A stretch of DNA of 64,000 bases from Candidatus Nanopelagicaceae bacterium (GTDB taxonomy: Bacteria; Actinomycetota; Actinomycetes; Nanopelagicales; Nanopelagicaceae), in assembly GCA_018882885.1 (NCBI GenBank), contig VERG01000003.1, positions 1-64,000 on the forward strand, written 5' to 3'. Shown here in pieces: positions 29,512 to 31,638 of the stretch. Within the stretch, counting starts at the first letter, position 1. Each line of letters begins with the position of its first letter. The position numbers and the translations under genes are program-made. A model generated the notes under the pieces. The model worked only from the letters and a program-made list of their open reading frames with translations, searched no databases and was not told the DNA's origin.

Positions 29512-30105
29512 TTATTTATCTAAGGCGGCATTTGGGTTTATTACCGCCTCGGCAACCTCTTTCATTGTTATGCGCCGATCCATGGCCGCTTTTTGAATCC
29601 AAGAAAAGGCTTCTGGCTCAGAGAGTTTTAGGGCCTGCATCAATATTCCCTTAGCCCGATCGATAATTTTTCGGGTTTCTAATCTGTCATGTAAATCCGC
29701 TACTTCCGACTCTAGAGATTTCATCTGACGATGACGACTAATTGAGATCTCGATGGCTGGAAGTAAATCATTAATCGTGAAAGGTTTAACAACGTAGGCC
29801 ATGGCCCCGGCATCTCGAGCTCGATCAACTAAATCTTTCTGACTAAAAGCGGTCAGCATAAGAACCGGAGAGATAGAAATTATTTTCTCAGCAGCAGATA
29901 TCCCATCCAACACCGGCATCTTCACATCGAGAATTGCGAGGTCAGGTTTATGAAGGTTGGAAAGTTCAATAGCTTCTTGTCCATTTGATGCTTGAGCAAC
30001 AACCTCATACCCCGCTTCTGTGAGCATCTCGACGAGATCCATGCGGATTAAGGTTTCATCTTCAGCAACCAAGATTCGATGGCGAACTGAAGAGTCAGAT
30101 GACAT
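29512..30105 (-). CDS. ANTAR-domain response regulator (PdtaR-like)
   Basis: A receiver domain followed by an ANTAR RNA-binding domain; such proteins bind paired hairpins in mRNA leaders and control termination. In the 197 residues, the receiver (1-120) shows acidic residues E15/D16, phosphoacceptor D60 in 'LAILDVKMP', T85 and K107. The ANTAR domain (~125-192) contains 'RKIIDRAKGILMQALKLSEPEAF'. This is the architecture of mycobacterial PdtaR. The ATG lies one base after the 3' end of a tRNA gene and has no Shine-Dalgarno sequence, so tRNA 3' processing could create its leaderless mRNA. No partner histidine kinase is in the window. Confidence 0.92.
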   Translation of the reverse strand: MSSDSSVRHRILVAEDETLIRMDLVEMLTEAGYEVVAQASNGQEAIELSNLHKPDLAILDVKMPVLDGISAAEKIISISPVLMLTAFSQKDLVDRARDAGAMAYVVKPFTINDLLPAIEISISRHRQMKSLESEVADLHDRLETRKIIDRAKGILMQALKLSEPEAFSWIQKAAMDRRITMKEVAEAVINPNAALDK

Positions 30106-30106
30106 G

Positions 30107-30179
30107 TGCCTCGAGTCGGATTTGAACCGACACTATGCAGTGTTTGAGACTGCCCTCTCTACCGTTGGAGTACCGAGGC
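30107..30179 (-). tRNA. tRNA with CAA anticodon (nominally Leu), class I shape
   Basis: A 73-base cloverleaf on the minus strand: acceptor GCCTCGG paired with TCGAGGC (one G-T pair), discriminator A, anticodon stem GCAGT/ACTGC with loop CTCAAAC giving anticodon CAA, and T arm GTCGG/CCGAC with loop TTCAAAT. The D stem is poor (three pairs plus a C-A mismatch, CTCC/AGAG). The variable region is only five bases (ATAGT), although leucine tRNAs normally have a long variable arm. CCA is not encoded. The 5' end is 19 bases after pyk and the 3' end one base before the response-regulator ATG. Confidence 0.85.
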
Positions 30180-30201
30180 TGGTGCTACTTACCCTATTCT
30201 A
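30180..30201 (-). promoter_or_regulatory. Possible tRNA promoter overlapping the pyk stop codon
   Basis: TAGAAT (30196-30201, minus strand) begins with the TAG stop of pyk and lies 16 bases before the tRNA 5' end, giving a start about nine bases upstream of the mature tRNA. Confidence 0.4.
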
Positions 30202-31638
30202 ACGATAAGCAGGCGCGACGCCACCTACTGCATCTCCCACCTGGTGTACCCGCATCGCGTTAGTTGAGCCAGGAATTCCAGGAGGCGAACCAGCAACAAT
30301 AAGTATGAGCTCACCCTTTGCGACTCTTTGGGATTCAAGAACAATGGCATCAACCTGTTTCACCATCTCATCGGTGGTTGTTACAAGTGGGGTAAGGATT
30401 GGTTCAACCCCCCAAGTTAGTGACATTTGATTGAAAGTTTCGGCATCTGGGGTTAATGCCAGAATGGGAATTGGTGATCTTAGGCGTGACATGCGGCGCG
30501 CAGAATCACCTGATTTAGTAAAAGCAGCTAGGAACTTTGCCCCCACCGTAAGACCTACTTCGGTAGCGGCTTTAGTTATTGCGCCACCTTTAGTCTTTGG
30601 GTTGTGTTGCAGCGCTGGAATTAAGTGCAAAGCCTCTTGCTCAGTTTTCTCAATAATGCGGGCCATGGTTTGTACCGCTTCAATTGCAAAGCTGCCAACA
30701 CTAGTTTCACCAGAAAGCATTAAGGCATCAGCGCCATCTAAAACCGCGTTAGCGCAATCTGTTGCTTCGGCGCGAGTTGGGCGAGAGTTGGTAATCATTG
30801 AATCCAACATCTGAGTTGCAACGATTACTGGTTTGGCATTTTCACGCGCCAAGGTCACGCAACGCTTCTGAACAAGTGGAATATCTTCGATTGGCATCTC
30901 TACGCCCAAGTCACCGCGCGCAACCATAATTCCATCAAATGCGGCGACTATCTCCTCAAGATTTTCAACTGCTTGAGGTTTTTCAATTTTAGCAATTACT
31001 GGGACTCTAGTCCCGACCTCATCCATAATCTGATGAACATCTAAAATATCTTTGGCGGATCGCACAAAAGACAGTGCGATGAAATCAGCACCAGCTTTTA
31101 ATCCCCAGCGCAGATCTTCCTTATCTTTGTCTGACATGGCAGGGACGGACACAGCTACTCCAGGAAGATTTATACCTTTGTTGTTGGAAACCGGACCCGG
31201 CTCAATAACTTTTGTGACAACTTCATTGCCTTTTACTTCCACAACTTCAACGGTGACTTTACCGTCATCAATCAGAATGCGATCGCCTTTGCGACAATCC
31301 CCCGGCAATCCTTTGTAAGTGGTTCCTACTCGATCTCTGGTTCCAGAGATTTCATCAGTAGTAATTGTGAAAATATCCCCGCGACTCAAATCATGAGGAC
31401 CGTTTTCAAATCTGCCTAAGCGAATTTTTGGACCTTGAAGATCCACCAAAATGGCAACAGGTTTGCCGGCATCGGCAGCCGCTTTTCGGATGAGATTAAG
31501 ACGATTTTGATGCTCCTCATACCCTCCATGAGAGAGGTTCAATCGGGCTACATTCATCCCCGCTGCAATCAGCTGGGCCGCTTTCTCCTCAGATTCAACG
31601 GCAGGACCCATAGTGCAAACAATTTTGGCGCGGCGCAT
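30199..31638 (-). CDS. pyk: Pyruvate kinase
   Basis: Final ATP-forming step of glycolysis. The 479-residue protein shows 'AKIVCTMGPAVES' at the N-terminus, 'MNVARLNLSHGGYEEH', the active-site signature 'VIAKIEKPQAVENLEEI' with the catalytic lysine near residue 220, 'GIMVARGDLGVEMP' and 'SGETSVGSFAIEAV'. The ATG at 31638 has TAAAAT six bases upstream and no ribosome binding site, indicating a leaderless transcript. The tRNA and ANTAR regulator follow closely, so read-through into them is likely. Confidence 0.97.
   Translation of the reverse strand: MRRAKIVCTMGPAVESEEKAAQLIAAGMNVARLNLSHGGYEEHQNRLNLIRKAAADAGKPVAILVDLQGPKIRLGRFENGPHDLSRGDIFTITTDEISGTRDRVGTTYKGLPGDCRKGDRILIDDGKVTVEVVEVKGNEVVTKVIEPGPVSNNKGINLPGVAVSVPAMSDKDKEDLRWGLKAGADFIALSFVRSAKDILDVHQIMDEVGTRVPVIAKIEKPQAVENLEEIVAAFDGIMVARGDLGVEMPIEDIPLVQKRCVTLARENAKPVIVATQMLDSMITNSRPTRAEATDCANAVLDGADALMLSGETSVGSFAIEAVQTMARIIEKTEQEALHLIPALQHNPKTKGGAITKAATEVGLTVGAKFLAAFTKSGDSARRMSRLRSPIPILALTPDAETFNQMSLTWGVEPILTPLVTTTDEMVKQVDAIVLESQRVAKGELILIVAGSPPGIPGSTNAMRVHQVGDAVGGVAPAYR

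Follow-up and report, generated by a model that had tools for sequence, protein, structure and literature searches.

Whether a gene that folds as a class I tRNA and carries a leucine anticodon does in fact encode a leucine tRNA is the question raised by positions 30107-30179 of the window, the whole 64,000-nucleotide stretch of DNA analysed here. The analysis leaves us highly confident of one answer, namely that the gene encodes a functional elongator tRNA-Leu(CAA), which derives from an ordinary long-armed tRNA-Leu and whose variable arm has been lost to a 5-nt loop.

Structure of the tRNA gene

The gene and its diagnostic parts are as follows.

30107..30179, minus strand: tRNA-Leu(CAA), class I-shaped, 73 nt (ARAGORN; Rfam RF00005, 54.1 bits; conservation in the family and the class)
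30144..30146, minus strand: anticodon CAA (positions 34-36), a reader of UUG (ARAGORN, Rfam and sequence)
30132..30136, minus strand: variable region AUAGU (44-48), 5 nt, the last base being U48 of the A15-U48 pair (sequence; U48 in 151/151 relatives)
30155..30170, minus strand: D arm in the tRNA-Leu register, with C10-G25, U11-A24 and C12-G23 paired, C13·A22 unpaired, and A14, A15, G18G19 and A20a present
30107..30107, minus strand: discriminator A73 (sequence; A73 in 151/151 relatives)

The RNA from 30107-30179 (-) reads, segment by segment, GCCUCGG UA CUCC AAC GGUAG AGAGG GCAGU CUCAAAC ACUGC AUAGU GUCGG UUCAAAU CCGAC UCGAGGC A. ARAGORN calls it tRNA-Leu(caa) at 30106-30179(-), a span that includes 1 nt beyond A73, and the Rfam tRNA model matches it in full length at 30107-30179(-) with 54.1 bits and an E value of 7e-9. 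The initial annotation had described a 73-nt cloverleaf with a 5-nt variable region and good acceptor, anticodon and T arms, and this description was upheld by both programs and by the sequence itself; neither of them returned the better-fitting class II fold that had been considered for the same locus. With 5 nt, the variable region falls short of the class II variable arm of at least 10 nt. The acceptor and T stems are 7 and 5 bp, and hence the gene does not belong to the allo-tRNAs with 8/4 or 9/3 arrangements. CCA is absent from the gene, as the DNA 3' of A73 reads C-ATG, and would be added after transcription.

The D arm had been regarded as weak, with a C-A mismatch. The mismatch is real (C13·A22), but the arm proved to be an ordinary tRNA-Leu D arm. 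In the leucine register, which has the extra A20a, the D stem consists of three base pairs and 13·22 is unpaired. Among 151 unique short-armed UUR tRNAs, the 10-25 pair in this register is G-C, C-G, U-A or A-U in 99%, and the 11-24 pair is C-G, U-A or G-C in 100%, whereas in the standard class I register 10-25 is paired in only 9% of the same tRNAs. The patterns with which these relatives were searched fixed C12, C13, A14, A15, G18G19, A20a, G21, A22 and a short variable region, so that uniformity at these positions (12-15, 18-22 and the variable region) is partly built in and is not independent evidence. A73, U48, 10-25 and 11-24 were left free, and the covariation at 10-25 and 11-24 is therefore real support for the leucine register. 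Canonical bacterial class II tRNA-Leu, such as those with anticodons GAG and UAG in the same group, share A73, A14, A15-U48, G18G19 and A20a-G21 with the window tRNA, and likewise have a 3-bp D stem with 13·22 unpaired. They differ from it in their variable region, which is 11-15 nt long, while that of the window tRNA is 5 nt and forms no arm helix.

Leucine identity and the decoding of UUA and UUG

According to a 2023 review, the determinants of E. coli tRNA-Leu are A73, the A15-U48 pair, G18G19 and A20a, while human mitochondrial tRNA-Leu(UUR) relies mainly on A73 and A14 (PMC9976931). The window tRNA possesses every determinant listed in the literature for bacterial LeuRS (A73, A14, A15-U48, G18G19 and A20a), and A73 and U48, which the search patterns left free, are each present in 151 of 151 unique short-armed UUR relatives. 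A combined leucine signature, composed of A14, A15, U48, an unpaired 13·22, a 20a-type loop and A73, was found in 4/4 leucine tRNAs and in 0/34 other tRNAs in each of two complete genomes of the same group, G024 and Candidatus Planktophila versatilis (NZ_CP016774.1). In E. coli, leucylation is uncorrelated with the long arm, and minimal tRNAs without the arm stay active (PMC9976931). LeuRS would thus be expected to charge the short tRNA, because the bacterial enzyme appears to read A73, A14, A15-U48 and the D/T-loop corner instead of the arm, which, judging from the E. coli minimal-tRNA data (PMC9976931), is probably dispensable for charging.

A second short-armed leucine tRNA, with anticodon UAA, is present in the genome of the window at G000:C14:47315-47387 (L026), and the long-armed tRNA-Leu of this genome are GAG and UAG only. 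This genome is a draft of 35 contigs, and the absence of class II UUR tRNAs rests on its complete relatives. G024 and NZ_CP016774.1 carry exactly four tRNA-Leu each, of which GAG and UAG have variable regions of 11-15 nt and CAA and UAA of 5 nt, and a second, class II tRNA-Leu(CAA) or tRNA-Leu(UAA) was found in neither of these two genomes. Since CAA and UAA are both short and no long-armed UUR tRNA accompanies them, the short forms are the sole readers of UUA and UUG, and all UUA/UUG decoding in the window's family falls to them. UUR codons account for 48% of the leucine codons in the 47 long ORFs of the window. In an alignment of LeuRS, the UUA and UUG codons of four family genomes fall mostly at leucine columns, where GC-rich relatives use CUG. 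The genetic code is hence standard, with UUA and UUG encoding leucine in the window's family, so that the short-armed tRNAs must carry leucine, and tRNA-Leu(CAA) is predicted to be charged with it. As a separate observation, Ca. Planktophila versatilis also carries a tRNA-Gly(ACC)-like gene (G333:C1:266455-266526) with a low score of 38 bits and a poor D stem.

A single LeuRS of bacterial type was identified, and 24/24 genomes tested have an enzyme that scores above the family cut-off. The Actinomycetes enzymes form two divergent clades, with 58-76% and 34-37% identity to the G024 enzyme, respectively. Both clades co-occur with short-armed tRNAs, which indicates that no special LeuRS is needed on such evidence, and a comparison of LeuRS clade with tRNA shape in about 23 genomes gave no rule, as neither clade maps cleanly. 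The split among the LeuRS loci (L267-L288) runs even within one family (f26, G094 vs G062). Besides, Cylindrospermum sp. NIES-4074 has extra LeuRS-like genes (G336:C2:305573-307435 and G336:C3:215036-216898, with a 649-aa frame), in which profile positions of about 225-405, the expected place of the editing domain, are unmatched.

Genomic neighbourhood

The tRNA gene lies between two protein-coding genes.

29512..30105, minus strand: ANTAR response-regulator gene (Pfam Response_reg and ANTAR)
30103-30105, minus strand: ATG of the ANTAR gene, 1 nt past the tRNA A73, an abutment kept in the window's family
30199..31638, minus strand: pyruvate kinase gene pyk (Pfam PK and PK_C), ending about 19 nt before the tRNA on the same strand, with conserved synteny

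Across the class, the ANTAR gene is a neighbour of the CAA gene, and pyk is often close by too; this shared synteny points to one inherited CAA locus. Within the window's family, the CAA gene mostly shares its strand with pyk and ANTAR, whereas in most other families it is on the opposite strand to ANTAR, at a distance of about 60-310 nt, and between ANTAR and pyk where pyk is in reach. The ANTAR start codon (ATG or GTG) is found exactly 1 nt past A73 in 33 of 41 unique family loci, or in 33 of 37 when four opposite-strand loci are excluded (window 30103-30107; L040-L078, L112, L128, L132, L140 and L144). As pyk, the tRNA gene and the ANTAR gene are lined up in the window's family, the tRNA is probably excised from a longer transcript there. 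A sigma-70 scan, which is weak evidence, detected no promoter for the tRNA or for ANTAR between pyk and ANTAR. The arrangement suggests that 3' processing after A73 would leave an ANTAR mRNA starting with C-AUG, which would be almost leaderless.

Alternative explanations

The abutment, together with the position of tRNA-Leu(CAA) beside the ANTAR gene throughout the class, would also fit an element that serves the ANTAR gene and does not decode, be it a processing signal or a regulator resembling a tRNA, the latter having been suggested in the initial annotation. We consider this very improbable, because the gene is the only cognate CAA tRNA in the complete genomes, with no class II substitute, and UUG codons are frequent; moreover, the opposite strand and the greater distance usual outside the window's family leave no room for a cis signal there. 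A pseudogene or dead tRNA is a reading whose probability we regard as almost negligible. The Rfam score of 54.1 bits is indeed below that of most tRNAs in the window's genome, but most long-armed tRNAs of this genome score equally low or lower. Broken stems or relaxed conservation are not seen either: the stems of the acceptor, anticodon and T arms are intact, full-length copies with 92-100% identity, far above chance, occur in most of 37 same-family genomes searched, several species of the family carry copies that are 100% identical, and the determinants are strictly conserved class-wide.

The class I overall shape may recall a tRNA that shifted its anticodon into the leucine box and is charged with another amino acid, or a reassigned codon. 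Shifts of this kind do occur, for instance in human tRNA-Leu-CAA-5-1, which is nearly a tRNA-Met (PMC8450103). Charging with another amino acid had been proposed for the window tRNA as well, and it now seems highly unlikely, given that the combination of D-arm register, A20a, unpaired 13·22, A15-U48 and A73 is confined to leucine tRNAs in the two complete genomes, that A73 and U48 are invariant among the 151 relatives, and that UUA and UUG align with CUG at conserved leucine positions of LeuRS. A short-armed but genuine tRNA-Leu(CAA) is therefore the explanation that we retain.

Distribution of short-armed tRNA-Leu

The window tRNA had also been suggested to be a divergent leucine tRNA specific to its lineage; the divergence was borne out, but the form is class-wide and reaches other phyla. 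The short-armed UUR pattern had matches in 231 of 297 Actinomycetes genomes, while the class II UUR pattern matched in 98/297, a few of these matches being visibly non-tRNA. Named carriers include Mycobacterium, Nocardia, Gordonia, Rhodococcus, Corynebacterium, Bifidobacterium, Microbacterium, Nocardioides, Salinispora and Streptomyces lincolnensis (CAA). Many families are mixed, such as f35 with a short UAA and a long CAA, and in family f19, which is probably Streptomyces, UAA is long, the class II UAA pattern being matched and the class I one mostly absent. Short and long states are both present in other classes of the phylum. Outside the phylum, the occurrence is sporadic, and in several such genomes the other UUR tRNA is long-armed; carriers are the cyanobacteria Cylindrospermum, Microcoleus and Moorena, and metagenome-assembled genomes labelled as Chloroflexaceae, Planctomycetota, Christensenellaceae, Rokuibacteriota and Deltaproteobacteria.

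The idea that arm loss is confined to UUR isoacceptors was rejected, as a short Leu(UAG) is present in families f14, f17, f23 and f34. GAG was long-armed in 5/5 genomes where it was read. The arm would thus have been lost in some isoacceptors, most often UUR and in some families UAG, and kept in GAG wherever inspected. Phages of Mycobacterium, Rhodococcus and Streptomyces (records H2-H20) carry tRNAs that resemble short-armed tRNA-Leu(UAA) and are annotated as tRNA-Leu. As well, a dense tRNA array in G088 (L313, G088:C1:4700-5700) holds unusual tRNAs, one of them a short-armed Leu(CAG), and a normal long-armed Leu(CAG) is found elsewhere in that genome.

Relation to known systems and significance

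Animal mitochondrial tRNA-Leu(UUR) likewise has no long variable arm, but it is structurally degenerate, whereas the window tRNA is a complete cloverleaf encoded by a bacterial gene. The actinobacterial UUR decoder bldA tRNA-Leu(UAA) of Streptomyces is long-armed. A mycobacterial tRNA-Leu(TAG) with a short variable loop (PMC6582537) is both short-armed and actinobacterial; it is an additional, cluster-encoded gene, unlike the window CAA, which is a single-copy core gene with no long-armed CAA substitute. In a 2024 study of M. tuberculosis, only tRNA-Leu-2, -3 and -5 are named as long-looped, which implies that the other leucine isoacceptors are short, and there they receive no comment as a variant (PMC11541572). 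The anticodon-recovery rules of tRNA-seq software class tRNA-Leu as type II with a variable region of 13-22 nt (PMC6297222), and actinobacteria do not appear in a review of non-canonical tRNAs. In literature outside subscription journals, we found only passing mentions and nothing that describes short-armed tRNA-Leu as a class or as a form widespread among bacteria; as far as we found, these tRNAs are annotated individually in databases and are unrecognised as a group.

We also considered whether short-armed tRNA-Leu might be an old subfamily, separately maintained across several phyla, with its shape kept for a function and not the product of repeated neutral loss. This seems to us rather unlikely. 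If it were true, the shape might, for example, bring different kinetics of charging or release at UUR codons, or alternatively allow escape from toxins or enzymes that grip class II tRNAs by the arm.

The long arm, stated in a 2023 review to be missing only in animal mitochondria, has been treated as universal for tRNA-Leu everywhere else (PMC9976931), and the short forms depart from this view. Many genomes with short forms also keep long-armed leucine tRNAs, and they offer a natural test of whether the arm is required by LeuRS, in editing and elongation, and by toxins that target tRNAs; the short forms are also relevant to pathogens in which LeuRS is a drug target.
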